DNA of 64,000 nt from Geminocystis sp. NIES-3709 (GTDB lineage: Bacteria; Cyanobacteriota; Cyanobacteriia; Cyanobacteriales; Cyanobacteriaceae), in NCBI RefSeq assembly GCF_001548115.1, contig NZ_AP014821.1, positions 744,001-808,000 of the forward strand. The letters run 5' to 3'. Both the position numbers and the translations under genes were made by a program. Of this stretch, positions 5,836 to 63,473 are shown piece by piece. Every line of letters starts with the position of its first letter. Positions within the stretch are counted from its first letter, which is position 1. The notes under the pieces were generated by a model. It saw nothing but the letters and a program-made list of their open reading frames with translations, searched no databases and was not told the DNA's origin.

Positions 5836-6453
5836 CTATTGCATTCGATCGATGGTACGATATTGAATAGCTTCTGCTAAATGATTAGTTTTTAAATGCT
5901 CATCCCCTGCTAAATCAGCGATAGTGCGTGAGACTTTTAAAATACGATCCATTGCACGAGCAGATAAACCTAACTTGCGTATTGCACCCTCTAATAGATT
6001 GCGACTGGTTTCGTCTAAGTCACAAAACTTTCGTAAATGACGGGATTGCATATGTGCATTACAACTGATTCTATCTCCTTTGAAACGATTATGAGCTATT
6101 TCTCTCGCTTTTTTGACTCTTTCCCTCACTATTTCCGAGGTTTCTCCTGTTTTTTGGGTAGTCATTTCTTCTGGTTTAAGCCGACTTACTACTACTTGTA
6201 AGTCAATTCGATCGAGAAGAGGCCCTGATAATTTTGCCCAATATTGTTCTCGTTGCCGTGGCGAACAAGTACAAGGTTGGATAGAATCCCCAAAATACCC
6301 GCATGGGCATGGATTGGTACTTGCGATCAAGGTAAATTGAGCAGGAAAAAGTACTGATTGTCTAGCACGAGAGATGGTAATATGTCCGTCCTCTAGGGGT
6401 TGACGCAAAAATTCTAGTACACTACGTTTGAATTCTGTGAGTTCGTCAAGAAA
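5836..6453 (-). pseudogene. comM: comM 3' part (YifB/Mg-chelatase-like ATPase), cut by the element
   Basis: Encodes the C-terminal ~205 residues of ComM/YifB, an AAA+ branch-migration helicase used in natural transformation. Visible: LFLDELTEFKRSVLEFLRQP (Walker B D-E and following helix), ISRARQSVLFPAQF, STNPCPCGYFGD, SPRQREQYWAKLSGPLLDRID (arginine-finger region), and the C-terminal LSARAMDRILKVSRTIADLA. Upstream of LFLDE the frame reads into unrelated element DNA, beginning at the AGAAA core 6449-6453. The missing N-terminal part is at 62554-63473. Without excision this fragment has no comM promoter or start. Confidence 0.95.
6449..6453. other. Left attachment core (attL-type junction)
   Basis: AGAAA on the + strand, flanked on the left by comM sequence (GAGTTCGTCA) and on the right by element DNA (CAAATAGACAAT). 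The element-side arm AATAGACAAT is an inverted match to ATTGT...CTATT on the other end, so the reconstructed circle junction has arms ATTGT-n4-CTATT and AATAGACAAT around the core, as expected of a serine-recombinase attP. Confidence 0.85.
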
Positions 6454-6478
6454 CAAATAGACAATAAACATATAAAAA

Positions 6479-6820
6479 TTATACACATTCATTAAGAATC
6501 TTTTGAGCGACTTTAAGTTTCTCTTCTTTAGGGAGATTAATAAGATAAGGATAAGCTTCTTTTGCATTATCAGGTAATTCTTTCAAGAAATTATTATTCA
6601 AATTTTTATCTTTAATTATTGAGAACAATTCATTAAGTTCAATTCTCATATAATTAGAGATTTTCTCTAAATTTTGTGGTGTAGGAATATTTTTTTTATG
6701 TATCCAAGTTCTCAACGCATAATAAGAAGACCCTAACTCTTCCGCAAATTGACGAAGACTTTTATCACCTTTTAAATCCATTAATAATTTAGATAATCGA
6801 TCAAGTTCTTCATCATTCAT
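6479..6820 (-). CDS. XRE-type helix-turn-helix regulator
   Basis: 113 aa. Residues 15-60 read LKGDKSLRQFAEELGSSYYA then LRTWIHKKNIPTPQNLEKIS, the five-helix Cro/C1 fold (S-R-FAEELG-S-xx-LR-W-xx-K-IPTP-NLEKI). The C-terminal half is acidic with PDNAKEAYPYLINLPKEEKL, unlike classic repressors, and may be an oligomerisation or sensor segment. It is the first gene inside the left end of the element, transcribed outward toward comM, and diverges from the rep-like operon. Position suggests control of element maintenance or excision; that is inference. Confidence 0.75.
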   Translation of the reverse strand: MNDEELDRLSKLLMDLKGDKSLRQFAEELGSSYYALRTWIHKKNIPTPQNLEKISNYMRIELNELFSIIKDKNLNNNFLKELPDNAKEAYPYLINLPKEEKLKVAQKILNECV

Positions 6821-22900: not shown

Positions 22901-24164
22901 TACTAAGTATTATTTCTGTTAATTGTTGATGAGGGTGTTCTGCTAATACCTGAAATTCTGTTATTATCTTTGTCTTATCCTGTTGTTTAATAGTAACTAT
23001 AATTAATTCATTATCAGGAAATACGATCGAGTTCACATTTTCTAAATTATTACCAGTGATAGTAACGGTGATAGTTTCTCCTGCTGTTAATTGGTGAGGA
23101 GTAATAGCATCAATAACTGGTTTTTTAGCTTGTAATCGTTTACTTTTCTCTCTGATAATCTGGTCTAAAAACTCTTGGGAGAACTCAAGGATATAATCGG
23201 AATCTTCCCACTCCTCATCAAACTGCTCAATGGTATCTGTGATCGCTTCTAAGTCGATCGAGTCAGAATAATAAAGAAAAGTTACACTCTCTGCATTTCT
23301 GGTATGCGCCGCCTTCGTGAAGTTATCAGAACCTTCGTGCATTATGTGATTACCAAGATAATCTGTTAATATCCCTGTTTTCTTGTGGTAAATAGCTCTC
23401 CTTCCCGTGTCCATCTTCACCATCTTAATCTTCAGAACTTCTAATCTTACTAATTCTGCTAATATCTCTGTACTAGTGAGAGAACTATCATCAAGACTAT
23501 CAAGGAATTGTTGCAGGGTTTGGCGGACAAAGGGTAAACGATACTCAGGATTTTGTAGTTTCTTTAGTTCCTTTACATCCCTAACATTACAAAATCCCAT
23601 CCAGTCCATTAATAACCTTATTTCTCCCTCATTCTTTACAAGATGCTGTAACGGTTCTTCATATAGTTTTAATACACCACTCTCAAAATAGGCAGTCGAT
23701 CGACGGTATAGTTTTGTTCTTTCTAAATAAGCGGTAATAAAATCATTATATTTATCTTTATCATCAGGTAAATTAAACTTTCTTCTCCTTCTTATTTTGC
23801 TCTCTAATTCTAGGAAACTACCGGCTAATAAACTATCTTCTTTCTTTATATTTTCTAACTCTAAAAACTTCTCTATTATCTCTACTTTACTGGTTCTTAA
23901 TAAGGTATTATTTGGCAAATTATTCTCATTCTTTAATGTGTAGTAATACACATGGGCAGTATTTAAGTCTATTCTCACTAATTTATAGTTACTGTGCTTA
24001 CCAAATATTCCTAAAAAACTAACAATATTATTTAATAAATTATCTGCGTCTCGGCGTTTAAATATTAACCAGTATTGGTTATCAATTCCCTTAATAGTAT
24101 TACCTTGTTGATGATAATAAGGGCGTTGATTTTTGGTTATTTCTAAGATTACTTGATTTAGCAT
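19941..24164 (-). CDS. SNF2-type helicase with N-terminal PLD and IPT/TIG domains
   Basis: 1407 aa. Order: residues ~130-310 phospholipase-D-like nuclease (AYLERTKLYRRSTAYFESGV; the H-K-K-T-G-I-L-T-D stretch resembling HxKx4D; HEGSDNFTKAA); ~345-440 an IPT/TIG beta domain (ITPHQLTAGETITVTITGNN); ~500-1120 a SNF2/HepA helicase with Walker A-type ADAVGLGKTRLASAV, VIIDEVHEG, LTATPWNNR, and motifs V-VI LSVGQNLQDADYLINID, LPWNPMTLEQRIGRIDRP. The C-terminus is charged. Starts one base after the stop of the 24166 gene. Probably the DNA-translocating arm of a restriction-like system with the methylase and SIR2 upstream. Confidence 0.85.
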   Translation of the reverse strand: MLNQVILEITKNQRPYYHQQGNTIKGIDNQYWLIFKRRDADNLLNNIVSFLGIFGKHSNYKLVRIDLNTAHVYYYTLKNENNLPNNTLLRTSKVEIIEKFLELENIKKEDSLLAGSFLELESKIRRRRKFNLPDDKDKYNDFITAYLERTKLYRRSTAYFESGVLKLYEEPLQHLVKNEGEIRLLMDWMGFCNVRDVKELKKLQNPEYRLPFVRQTLQQFLDSLDDSSLTSTEILAELVRLEVLKIKMVKMDTGRRAIYHKKTGILTDYLGNHIMHEGSDNFTKAAHTRNAESVTFLYYSDSIDLEAITDTIEQFDEEWEDSDYILEFSQEFLDQIIREKSKRLQAKKPVIDAITPHQLTAGETITVTITGNNLENVNSIVFPDNELIIVTIKQQDKTKIITEFQVLAEHPHQQLTEIILSTDKPYLLELSQGIEIIQRIVIPDFPDIEGFKEAVELILQGRHGQPEDFIYWLAQQKPHLLRVEDSDLLVEFVNDGILFEHQKSGSQHCYRIMQDFGVAVCADAVGLGKTRLASAVAKLYQHNQGQVRIAIIASKKLHSNWEREMRELGFRKGDYELYNKNLMSRKNSNFLDDFNRYGGADLVIIDEVHEGIRNYNNHIHKTCLRIRQQDIVDNRQRYYLLLTATPWNNRREDIYNILSPFLTRPEGFTDLGFPPELAHWFSNREIGVENFTDNTPIFRNVYRELFLQRTRKMLRDATPDLNLYAKRIAEWLPVQFEAKTETALEQIFTQFENSLFIPFADPIRYFTDTVEQRSLLRNQRRMFLQRAESSMYALRRTIKNFSDRIVLLQRRLESVTANGEGLKQFLLLHYDFITENEFNQDELEDNLLDFDNDDFWEDEDDEVEIDNNQEERRQQLRTSINLATDNLTDERAIDIYQRILTDCESDKEQLIEIESLLKDEFITDHKRQIVTAKVKELVKSGYKVLLISTFADTVIDYYRYMAQDTVIISKGIGMAMGGNKRYFTDNHIVKVNKHNLVKNQREKKGITRLELFRLFAPSANAKGNKPSLDEEIAVLIGSETLSVGQNLQDADYLINIDLPWNPMTLEQRIGRIDRPKQHKSDYIYIYYANSESQLLRQASRLNNLHKKLVGDLAEDGQKIPEINDLTELGASVYGDTSFDDEILPGYIDFIQSLVKVRKMEQDNIQEKTYNKQETAKDLYTENEILQSEELKKLVQRLGDDYIPNPISLGKLNNSDSAHNLLALTINYFGPNNEPLPDKKEVIYWNNLTGEEDAYGKSIALSFQTPEYHEVVSASVIIERANSLYEKLMGIKRDYEQNLEREDSTENINISSERVSRIQKRIREMDSFPEGVNRKIVKEILNKLNQHKQNKQVQKLLKQFTDGDKSKLGNDDFINQLVDETNRLSLIDMEVIKASKLKLSLSALLMLI

Positions 24165-59473: not shown

Positions 59474-59836
59474 ATGAGCAAGTTAATTAAAGAAAGATTA
59501 AATGTACCTTATGCAATGATAGCTGTAATAGCTGATCAATTAGGTGCGATCGAAGTTTATTGGCGAGAAAGCGATCGAAGTTACACAGGGTATGTCGCAG
59601 AGGTTTGGTTTGATAAATTACCTAGTGAATTTAGTTATTTATGGAGTCAAACAGTAAATACAAGCATATTAGTAAGGAAAATAGAGGAGTTAGGGTTCAG
59701 TATATCAATTCCTTGCACCGTGCCAGAAGGAGAAATTAAATTATTTCAAGGTCAAAGAAACAATAAACGATCGAAACTGAAATTGACAGGAGATAGTGAA
59801 TTAATAAAATCCTATTATCCAAAATTAAACCAATAA
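59474..59836 (+). CDS. Unknown element protein, 120 aa
   Basis: KLIKERLNVPYAMIAVIADQ LGAIEVYWRESDRSYTGYVA, then WSQTVNTSILVRKIEELGFS ISIPCTVPEGEIKLFQGQRN. Looks like a small alpha/beta protein with an R-x-x-R basic tail (NNKRSKLKL). No family recognised. Confidence 0.5.
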   Translation: MSKLIKERLNVPYAMIAVIADQLGAIEVYWRESDRSYTGYVAEVWFDKLPSEFSYLWSQTVNTSILVRKIEELGFSISIPCTVPEGEIKLFQGQRNNKRSKLKLTGDSELIKSYYPKLNQ

Positions 59837-60143: not shown

Positions 60144-60199
60144 TTAATATTAGTATAGGGTTTCCTCTATATTTTTTTGAAGATAAATGAAAGATTTAC

Positions 60200-60213
60200 T
60201 GTAAATATTTACA
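60200..60213. repeat. Palindrome TGTAAATATTTACA, copy 12
   Basis: Exact copy, the right-most in the element. A decayed half (CTGTAAATATTAATG) at 60478-60491 overlaps the start codon of the adenine-poor gene. Confidence 0.9.
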
Positions 60214-60488: not shown

Positions 60489-61046
60489 ATGTCGGGCGAA
60501 AAGAAGCTGTTCTTTCGTCGGTCTTTCGGGGCTGTTTTTCGTGTGGTTTCTTCCTTTCCTTGTTTTGTGTCTGCTTTTCTCGGTTCTTCGGTGGTGGGTT
60601 TTTCTGGGTCGCGCTTGGTTGTGCCGTCCTTTTTGCCTTCGTTGTTGTCTCGTCTTTCTCCCTCTTCGTCGGTTTTTGTTGGCTGTGCTTCGGGGGTTGA
60701 CTCCGTTGTGCGTGGGTCTTGTGCTTCGGTTCGTGTTTTTCGTGTGGTGGGTTCTGGTCGGTCGGCGTTTGTTGCTCGGTCGGTTGCCTTCGTTTCTGCG
60801 GTGTCGGCTTCGGGTGGTGTTCTTTTCTCTTTTCCGTCTGGTGTCTGTCCTTCTGGGGTCGTTCCTGCTCGTTCTTGGCGTTCTGGTTCTTTCCCTTCTG
60901 GTTCGTGGTCTTCCTTGGCTTTGGCTGTGGGGTTGGATATGCCTTGTCTTGTCTGGTTGCCTTCTGGGGTTGTTGCTCCTTCTTGGTTGTGTCCTGTTGG
61001 GTTGTCTTTTGGCGGTGGTCGTTGGTTTGCTTCGTTGCCGTTTTAG
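60489..61046 (+). CDS. Adenine-depleted gene; putative SLOG/DprA-like Rossmann protein
   Basis: 185 aa. GFSGSRLVVPSFLPSLLSRL (first strand, G-S-R-x-x-x-P), FVGCASGVDSVVRG (G-x-G-x-D), VFRVVGSGRSAFVARSVAFV, GGVLFSFPSGVCPSGVVPAR and SGSWSSLALAVGLDMPCLVW resemble the nucleotide-binding SLOG/DprA fold (V-G-C-A-x-G-V-D, then G-x-W-x-S-L-A-L-A). DNA from 60507 to the stop holds only three adenines in ~538 bases, though the region otherwise is AT-rich, so codon choice is extreme. ATG 60489 overlaps a palindrome half. Alternative frames are also open because stop codons need A, so the product rests on the Rossmann-like pattern and the codon bias. Function unproven. Confidence 0.6.
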   Translation: MSGEKKLFFRRSFGAVFRVVSSFPCFVSAFLGSSVVGFSGSRLVVPSFLPSLLSRLSPSSSVFVGCASGVDSVVRGSCASVRVFRVVGSGRSAFVARSVAFVSAVSASGGVLFSFPSGVCPSGVVPARSWRSGSFPSGSWSSLALAVGLDMPCLVWLPSGVVAPSWLCPVGLSFGGGRWFASLPF

Positions 61047-61052
61047 TCCGTT

Positions 61053-61082
61053 GGGGGCGGTTGCCTCCGCTTCTTTTTTTTT
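61053..61082 (+). terminator. Rho-independent terminator after the adenine-depleted gene
   Basis: GGGGGC 61053-61058 pairs with GCCTCC 61063-61068 (one G-U), loop GGTT, then CGCTTC and a run of nine T. It begins 7 bp after the stop at 61046 and marks the end of that transcript. Confidence 0.6.
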
Positions 61083-61086
61083 GTCA

Positions 61087-62496
61087 TCAAATTTTTAAAA
61101 TAATATCCACAATTTCAGCATCTTTAACAAATATTTTACTAACTAATTTACGGTAAATATCCCGTCTATCTTCTGGTAATAAAGAATCCCAAAAACCGAC
61201 AGAAGAAAAAATAGATTTAAAATATTCCTGATTTTCTTTCATACTTAAATCTTGATTATTTTGATTAAAGTCTAATTCTTTTATTTGTAACTCTAATTTA
61301 TCGATCGCCTCAGTAATAGCAGGGTTTTTCGGTAAAGATTGAAGGGTAAAAATTTGGTGTTGCAGTTCTGTAATTTGAGGATCAATTACTTGAGTCTTAG
61401 TTATAAGAGTTAATGCCGTTAATTCTTCATATTTTTGTTTTAAATAATTAATAAGAGAAGATTCTAAATAATCCATACGAATCATTTTTTTATTAGAACA
61501 ACCTTTAACCAGCCAATTTTTACACTGGTAATAATAATTTTTACCAGGAGTTTTACCACGATTACCAGTAACAGAATAACAGGCACAACGACACTCAGCA
61601 CAGAAAACAAGACCAGAAAGAGGATAAACAGGAGCTGTCGCACCATAACCCCGACGCTCACGATTGAATGATAATATTTGAATAATCTCTTGATACTGAG
61701 ATTCAGTTATAACGGGAGAATGTTGATTGGGGATTATAATAGTATCTTTTTGCTTACTCTTTTTAAGATAACAAAGATGACCACGAAGAACAGGATTAAT
61801 AAGATAATTATGTAAACCAGAAGGAGAGAATCGTAATTGATAACGAACTCGATAACCGTTTTCTTGAGAACTATTAAATAAACCAAAATACTGATTTAAC
61901 TTTCTTACTGTAGCTCTCAGACCCTTTACCTCAAAAAAAGTATTAATAATCCATTGTGCGATCGTATATTTACTATATTCCTTTTGATCATGAATAGTAC
62001 AAAGAAAAGGAGTCATATCAAACTCAAATTTATCGTTAACCTTACAATAACCAAAAGGAGGATTCATGGCTACTTTTCTATCTCTTAAATGATTCCAGCC
62101 GTGTGATACTCTTTCTGATAATCGATCAACCTCCATTTCTGCAAGAGAACCGAGCATATTAATTTGAAATCTACCAACAGCAGAGGAAGTATCTACATGA
62201 TCATCTAATGCAATTAACTTGACATTATTATTTTCGACTATCTTAATAAACTCCTTTAGCTTAACTAAACTACGAGTTAGACGATCGAGTCTAGTACAAA
62301 TAACTTCAGAAATTATATTATTTTCAATATCATTAATTAACTGTAAAAAGTTAAATCTTTTATCCTTACTGCCTGAATCTATATCACAGTAAATATATTC
62401 TGCACCTTGTTCTCTCACTCTCTTTTCTTGTTGTTCTAAAGCGTGTGAGTTTTCAGCTTGTTCTCTTTTGCTTACTCTACAATACCCTACTTTCAT
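61087..62496 (-). CDS. Large serine recombinase (XisF-like), probable integrase
   Basis: 469 aa from ATG 62494-62496. N-terminal resolvase domain with catalytic Ser9 in KVGYCRVSKREQ, then VICTRLDRLTRSLVKLKEFI (R-x-D-R-L-x-R-S) and GRFQINMLGSLAEMEVDRLSER. Recombinase domain ~170-300 (NPPFGYCKV, LRGHLCYLKK) and a zinc ribbon (LVFCAECRCACYSVTG with YYYQCKNWLVKGCSNK), then a coiled coil (ITELQHQIFTLQSLPKNPAI) as in large serine integrases. Closest in design to cyanobacterial XisF, which excises the fdxN element in heterocyst formers. Lies 58 bp inside the right junction, so it almost certainly catalyses integration into comM. Confidence 0.9.
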   Translation of the reverse strand: MKVGYCRVSKREQAENSHALEQQEKRVREQGAEYIYCDIDSGSKDKRFNFLQLINDIENNIISEVICTRLDRLTRSLVKLKEFIKIVENNNVKLIALDDHVDTSSAVGRFQINMLGSLAEMEVDRLSERVSHGWNHLRDRKVAMNPPFGYCKVNDKFEFDMTPFLCTIHDQKEYSKYTIAQWIINTFFEVKGLRATVRKLNQYFGLFNSSQENGYRVRYQLRFSPSGLHNYLINPVLRGHLCYLKKSKQKDTIIIPNQHSPVITESQYQEIIQILSFNRERRGYGATAPVYPLSGLVFCAECRCACYSVTGNRGKTPGKNYYYQCKNWLVKGCSNKKMIRMDYLESSLINYLKQKYEELTALTLITKTQVIDPQITELQHQIFTLQSLPKNPAITEAIDKLELQIKELDFNQNNQDLSMKENQEYFKSIFSSVGFWDSLLPEDRRDIYRKLVSKIFVKDAEIVDIILKI

Positions 62497-62553
62497 GTTA
62501 CCTAGTGGCAAATATTTAAAGTTCTATTATATACTGACATTGTACACCTATTC

Positions 62554-62558
62554 AGAAA
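62554..62558. other. Right attachment core (attR-type junction)
   Basis: AGAAA followed by comM sequence (AAGCACTCC). Element-side flank ATTGTACACCTATTC (62539-62553) has arms ATTGT and CTATT that mirror AATAG and ACAAT at 6456-6465. Replacing the left flank here restores comM. Confidence 0.85.
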
Positions 62559-63473
62559 AAGCACTCCATTATGTGATAGAGATATTTCTCCGGGTTGAGG
62601 AAAAGAGCCACCTCCCACAAGGGCAACACCACTGGCAGAATGGTGAGGACTACGAAAAGGACGCTCTCGTATTAATGAGCCTTTGTTTTTAAGTAATCCT
62701 GCCACTGAATAAATTTGCGATACTTGCAAGGCTTCCTGAAAATTCAAAGGAGGTAAAATTGTGGGTAATCTCCTTGCTAACATGGTTTTTCCAGCCCCTG
62801 GAGGCCCTACAAATATTAAATTATGTCCCCCTGCAGCGGCTATTTCTAAAGCTCTACGTCCGTGATTTTGTCCTTTTACATCTTTTAAATTATAAGCTCG
62901 ATCGAGCAAATTATGACGATCGTTTTCCTCCTGAAAAACAGTCCGTTGAAAGCTAGATGGATTTTGTAAAAATTCTGCAACTTCGTTAATATGATTCAAC
63001 CCATAAACTTTTATTCCTGCTACCACCGCCGCTTCTTGGGCGTTATCTTTTGGCACGATTATCCCACTCAAACCCAATTTTTCTGCCGTAACCGCTATAG
63101 GTAAAACTCCAGCAATCGATCGTAATCCACCATCAAGAGAAACCTCTCCCAAAAACAAATAATCATTTAAGTAAGTCGGATCAATTTGCTCTGAAGCGGC
63201 CAAAATACCAATACTAATAGGCAAATCAAAACTAGGCCCTTGTTTTTTTTAATCGGCGGGAGATAAATTAATCGTTATCTGACGTACTGGAAAAGCAAAA
63301 CCTGAATTTTTTAAGGCCGCTTTTACTCTTTCCCTTGACTCTTGTACTGCGGTATCAGGTAAACCTACCACAATAACTTTAGGCAATCCCCCCGACACAT
63401 CGACCTCAACTCCTACTTTTACCGCATCAATACCGACAATAGTGGCACTCCAAACTCTAGCTAACATAAGCAA
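62554..63473 (-). pseudogene. comM: comM 5' part, with an in-frame stop, cut by the element
   Basis: Encodes ComM residues 1 to about 306: [54 protein letters not shown], then after a stop [20 protein letters not shown], Walker [17 protein letters not shown] near 211-226, [20 protein letters not shown] and the seam SHNGVLFL. An in-frame TAA at 63249-63251 replaces the Leu/Ile codon normally found after SPAD; one base (TTA to TAA) explains it. So besides the insertion, comM has a nonsense codon, unless it is a sequencing error. Translation could restart at ATG 63222-63224. Confidence 0.9.

Follow-up and report, generated by a model that had tools for sequence, protein, structure and literature searches.

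Why should a gene keep adenine almost entirely off its coding strand? The question is raised by one gene, here called S, in a 64,000-nucleotide stretch of the Geminocystis sp. NIES-3709 genome (the window). Avoidance of short motifs, such as restriction sites or ACA, is familiar; to our knowledge, no gene family drops a whole base from its transcript and so cuts its protein to about ten amino acids. A literature search turned up no such family, and nothing on this trait in the literature on adenine-free genes.

Base composition of the S gene

The DNA of the window is about 35% A. Between positions 60507 and 61044 there are 250 T, 169 G, 116 C and 3 A (538 nt), which confirms a preliminary description of the gene as nearly without A from 60507 to its stop codon; at the A fraction of the window (0.3455), the probability of three or fewer A in 538 nt is about 10^-92. 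Three A-free runs lie in the gene (60506-60699, 194 nt; 60701-60936, 236 nt; 60940-61044, 105 nt) and a further one lies 3' of the stop codon (61046-61085, 40 nt). Over both strands of the 4.43 Mb genome, no A-free run of at least 100 nt falls outside S. At fourfold-degenerate sites, A occupies 0 of 122 positions in the S core versus 1641 of 5105 (32%) in the other long open reading frames of the window, and the synonymous sites of the core alone give a probability of about 10^-20.

Two details of the preliminary description need amending. The depletion was described as far as the stop codon; it continues through the terminator (Table 1). All three forward frames were said to be open, which is nearly the case because every stop codon contains A, but one alternative frame is closed by a TGA ending at 60700 and built with the A of an Asp codon.

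Table 1. Features of the S gene and its surroundings (positions in the window unless another locus is named)
Feature	Position	Strand	Remark
Gene S: 185-aa predicted DprA-like/SLOG Rossmann protein, ATG start, TAG stop	60489-61046	+	
Low-A stretch: nearly the entire coding sequence and the 3' UTR/terminator	60506-61085	+	4 A in 580 nt
Codon GAC, Asp71 of the GCAxGVD motif	60699-60701	+	A kept in 21 of 21 homologues with <2% A
A-free intrinsic terminator, GGGGGC-GGTT-GCCTCC then T run	61053-61083	+	Direct sequence reading
Repeat TTCACTGTAAATATT directly 5' of the S start codon	60473-60487	+	Second copy at 60195-60209; possible promoter/operator
Gene F2, of ordinary base composition in the window; homologue of the low-A F2 family	59474-59836	+	E about 1e-4, moderate
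Large serine recombinase, right edge of the inserted element	61087-62511	-	
Interrupted comM (Mg-chelatase-like), N-terminal part	62502-63473	-	
Interrupted comM, C-terminal part	5836-6567	-	PF13335 at genome 749857-750147, window 5857-6147
AlkB-like gene in other loci	L175: 2179-2682; L189: 4860-5640		Also L094, L148 and others

Relatives of S and a second low-A family

A search seeded with the window protein found homologues on a Microcystis plasmid, in an IMG/VR contig and in other cyanobacterial genomes; the loci are given L numbers where they need to be told apart. By profile search, 48 carriers of S homologues were found among 391 genomes of the same order, and 17 loci in a viral collection. 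Named plasmids carry them too, among them pSYSX of Synechocystis PCC 6803, where the gene is SGL_RS01470 (pSYSX 23270-23833) and has a further copy. Within the homologous part, the A content of these relatives runs from 0.2% to about 33%, with many low-A members at 0.4-2%. The preliminary description had allowed that the case might be isolated among homologues of normal composition, or lack a conserved protein; comparison of the homologues at the DNA level finds instead a conserved protein and a conserved low-A state.

In a tree of 70 rows, 50 have less than 10% A, 10 are intermediate and 10 are normal, counts that lean to low-A members because the first query was itself one. Most normal-A members form a separate group. 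Among the low-A relatives stand L097 (27% A), L138 and L140 (15-16%), L141 (18%) and L172, L175 and L176 (18-20%), which on sequence read as cases where the A constraint was probably lost; their exact placement is uncertain, with some long branches and a composition that differs among rows. The tree as a whole requires at least 6-8 changes of A state, some of which lead back towards normal A on long branches, and the low-A state is therefore one that is maintained and can be relaxed. The trait is no artefact and not confined to one gene; dozens of relatives have kept it over a long period.

A second small protein family, F2, is unrelated to S but linked or fused to it and has the same trait. 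Low-A F2 genes are found in L083, L084, L085, L087, L089, L093, L094, L096, L138, L144, L152, L153, L154, L171 and L172, and the two proteins are fused in L083, L154 and L172. The predicted F2 model (pLDDT 64; best structural Z 3.7) is too weak for a fold call. Because two unrelated families share the low-A state, the evidence argues for a property of how the S and F2 genes are used, not of one protein. At positions 276-1905 of L172, an F2-S fusion at 3% A is followed on the same contig by a second S copy at 19% A.

Predicted fold of the S protein

The alignments show conserved motifs GFSGSR, VGCAxGVD, FxxRS, CP and SGSW, and GCAxGxD is kept in 21 of 21 low-A members. The AlphaFold model of S, built from 17 sequences, has a pLDDT of 85, with the core above 90. 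When the model was ranked against known structures with VIA-align, the best matches were HpDprA (5mll, Z 9.7), ShosA (8zva, 8.7) and the SLOG domain of ThsA (8.2); CARF domains ranked after these SLOG matches, at Z about 7 and lower, a level at which chance is possible. The DprA profile PF02481 matched 2 of 16 members weakly (best E 2.5e-4) and the window protein not at all at E 1. On the model, S is a predicted Rossmann/SLOG protein of the DprA-like kind, which bears out the earlier reading of a Rossmann-like pattern in the frame starting at 60489. It resembles the DprA/SLOG superfamily in its fold, in its GxSGxR and GxAxGxD motifs and in the weak profile match, and differs in being a minimal single domain with a C-terminal QLSLF tail and a gene without adenine. 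Publications on ShosTA and on the slr60xx genes make no mention of the low-A trait.

Most homologues end in QLSLF or QLTLI, while the window copy ends in ASLPF. The QL[SD]LF-type tail resembles the bacterial beta-clamp motif and may serve in clamp binding; its Gln is kept in 14 of 21 low-A genes and accounts for the second most frequent retained A. In genes with less than 2% A, 98% of residues are F, L, S, C, W, P, R, V, A or G, which means that a functional Rossmann protein can apparently be built from these ten amino acids and one Asp.

Selection against A at the nucleotide level

Across 34 S and F2 genes with less than 2% A, A fills 0.7% of fourfold-degenerate sites, versus 31% in normal members. 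Stop codons in members below 3.5% A are TAG (28) or TGA (4) and never TAA, and those of normal members are TAA (9) or TAG (4). The lowest-A members mostly start with GTG or TTG; the window gene starts with ATG. The sole A present in all 21 members below 2% A is that of the Asp codon in GCAxGxD. Some synonymous A is retained, more often in a C-A-G context; this could reflect CpG mutation, and we claim no enzyme specificity from it.

Substitutions between close relatives tell the same story. In close pairs with less than 2% A (among L145, L148, L154 and L156), A is involved in 17 of 371 changes (4.6%) in the gene versus 361 of 655 (55%) downstream; the gene matches the flanking DNA in its frequency of C-T differences, but A-G differences nearly vanish. 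Selection to avoid adenine, one of the readings offered at the outset, is supported by this near absence of A changes in close pairs and by the persistence of the low-A state in many lineages, and we conclude from the sequence comparisons that the S transcript is probably under purifying selection against A.

Several simpler causes were considered. Chance or low complexity is ruled out by the fourfold sites, the conservation and the fold. Protein composition is rejected as the driver because the lack of A extends to synonymous sites, to the UTRs and to the start and stop codons. Avoidance of restriction-modification sites is implausible: it would leave the rest of the element open to cleavage. 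An anticodon nuclease or ribosome-dependent codon cleavage, by itself, leaves the depletion in the UTRs and of third-position A unexplained. A search for RNA structure in S gave no Rfam match, and the transcript folds no better than shuffled sequences (z 0.41).

Extent of the low-A region

Transcription starts were inferred from sequence, as putative promoters. Downstream of an extended -10 box (TGnTATAAT), the leader and the N-terminal coding part contain 0 A in 68 nt (L145), 0 in 69 (L148), 0 in 65 (L156) and 1 in 91 (L084). At the other end, the low A content of homologous loci persists to about 40 nt beyond the S stop codon. Upstream of the box, average A is higher, yet still below background over 65-270 nt in several loci. 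Neighbouring ordinary genes are unaffected in base composition.

Neighbourhood

In the window, comM is split by an element of about 56 kb, and S lies beside the serine recombinase at the edge of the element. The cargo of this element includes a type ISP restriction-modification enzyme, a KAP NTPase, a subtilase/AAA pair and a T4SS coupling-like ATPase.

In other loci, the neighbours of S include ArdA, a 2OG-Fe(II)/AlkB-like oxygenase, Gp157, Rad52- or ERF-type annealing proteins and a plasmid replication gene; both S and F2 are found beside ArdA, AlkB-like, Gp157 and Rad52-type genes. On pSYSX, S is about 4 kb from slr6031, which has been shown to be the replication protein CyRepX1 (PMC10899382). 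ArdA is a known leading-region anti-defence gene, and ArdA-type genes mark such islands (PMC11541004). By gene content, the S/F2 neighbourhood thus looks like an establishment or anti-defence region. With the anti-defence genes in the leading regions of conjugative plasmids (ArdA, PsiB; Samuel et al. 2024, PMC11541004), S shares a neighbourhood of ArdA, ssDNA-annealing genes and Gp157, and on pSYSX it lies upstream of CyRepX; unlike S, those genes are not described there as restricted in base composition, and any mobilization of the S elements is putative. PLSDB classes all of its listed S plasmids as non-mobilizable.

Possible causes of the constraint

The constraint itself is shown by the conservation of the low-A state, the second family, the synonymous, start and stop codons, the few substitutions involving A, the restriction of A to functional codons and the neighbourhood. 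What has been seen suggests that the S message must work where A-containing RNA cannot. The explanation we favour, at close to an even chance, is that S serves cyanobacterial plasmids and integrated elements in early establishment or against defence, and that its mRNA must work during an adenine-directed RNA insult. Between roughly the start of transcription and the terminator, the S transcript would be kept free of adenosine save where the protein needs A; an insult on adenine in RNA, whether from a ribonuclease specific for A or from a toxin that, like CmdT, modifies mRNA adenine, would disable ordinary messages; and the A-free S mRNA would keep working, its product helping the element to survive. 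The wider claim, that cyanobacterial mobile elements carry genes whose mRNA dispenses with one base to escape an adenine-targeting RNA defence, is put forward tentatively, as a real possibility that falls short of even. If true, there is an adenine-directed pressure on mobile elements that has so far gone unrecognized, as has the defence behind it; the pSYSX gene provides a test case in a model organism.

In nature, the S message would play the part that ACA-less mRNAs, which survive MazF, play in engineered single-protein production (PMC4775720). In both, an mRNA without the target letters would survive while others are cut, but that system is engineered and concerns only the ACA triplet, whereas S is natural and a whole base is missing. 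Defences acting on RNA adenine are known: Csx1/Csm6 of some species are adenosine-specific (PMC7192623, PMC9676260), and CmdT of the mRNA ADP-ribosyltransferase system CmdTAC modifies N6 of A in GA of mRNA (PMC11618068). CmdT targets GA dinucleotides, not every A, and the Csx1 of Synechocystis, the one characterized there, is C-specific (PMC9676260). No adenine-targeting enzyme was identified in the hosts. Cas10 is present in 24 of 48 carrier genomes versus 221 of 391 overall, and absent from the window's own genome; type III CRISPR of the host is not associated with S carriage and is therefore unsupported as the selecting agent, although the S element may come from hosts other than its present carriers. 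The Csx1_HEPN profile (PF09455) matched none of the 48 carriers, and matched control genomes only in two archaea, so that it is uninformative. Against an adenine insult stands the normal or intermediate A content of some S members. In several loci, moreover, low A reaches beyond the putative promoter on its 5' side, which a purely transcript-level cause would explain only if there is a further promoter upstream.

The coextension of low A with the transcript, UTRs included, and its indifference to reading frame would also fit a gene that lets RNA polymerase finish when ATP is nearly exhausted, through defence-induced nucleotide depletion or in a dying cell, with GTP, CTP and UTP sufficing for elongation; SLOG relatives do act in nucleotide-signal defence systems (ThsA). 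We consider this unlikely: translation would still need ATP for tRNA charging, and a simple ATP need does not predict that retained synonymous A depends on context. It is rather unlikely that the protection operates on DNA, with a template strand without T ensuring that T lesions or marks in incoming ssDNA (DarT-type ADP-ribosylation, UV photoproducts) cannot block an early gene. The S module does look like an establishment region, and low-A DNA runs upstream of the promoter in several loci, but isolated template T with purine neighbours, which would not form dimers, is avoided too, ordinary neighbouring genes are unaffected and the depletion is strongest within the putative transcript.

S or F2, or both, might instead belong to an adenine-attacking enzyme that their own mRNA must escape. 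That both families share the trait and are sometimes fused would agree with this, and nucleotide chemistry would suit both the invariant Asp and the SLOG fold; given homologues with the same motif and normal A, and no nuclease or transferase signature found in S or F2, we regard it as quite unlikely. Unusual mutation on one strand, the other reading offered in the preliminary description, is disfavoured. An A-specific mutator, whether a one-strand deaminase or reverse transcription of the transcript as in diversity-generating retroelements, which resemble S in adenine-specific change of an RNA-templated copy, would also leave an A-free region coextensive with the transcript, with A only where its loss is lethal. 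It is, however, unlikely to be the cause. The near-identical template repeat of such retroelements was not found (the genome has no other S match at E 1), and a search for RVT_1 reverse transcriptase in 17 host genomes came up empty in 4, among them the one with the longest low-A cluster. Passage through A should strongly raise G/T and G/C changes, which are only mildly raised, and several lineages have regained A.

Other features of the loci

Low-A genes are often missed in public annotation, or an antisense open reading frame is called in their place. Going by the PLSDB gene table, which is incomplete, the low-A S gene is omitted in L188 (4009-4134, minus strand) and L190 (4329-4760, minus strand) and an opposite-strand frame is called; in Microcystis NZ_CP025929 (L002) and NZ_AP024566 (L189), no gene is called over the S match.

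An AlkB/2OG-Fe(II)-oxygenase-like gene lies directly 5' of S in several of about nine loci, nearly all of them low-A; AlkB acts on alkylated adenine and cytosine. A small gene on the opposite strand often converges on the 3' end of S (L154 5781-6020, similar in 19 loci); it was judged by eye to be ribbon-helix-helix-like, and a Pfam search with it gave no match.

In L083 (7354-7575), L138, L156, L146 and L189, a purine tract, GAGAGAGGGG, lies 5' of the S promoter, and the low-A region after it contains a GC-rich hairpin. Together these make a possible candidate origin or ssDNA promoter. Upstream of S in L097 is an array of direct repeats of about 40 bp (AGGTTACCAATAGTGGTTAGGTTAGTC...), which resemble iterons.
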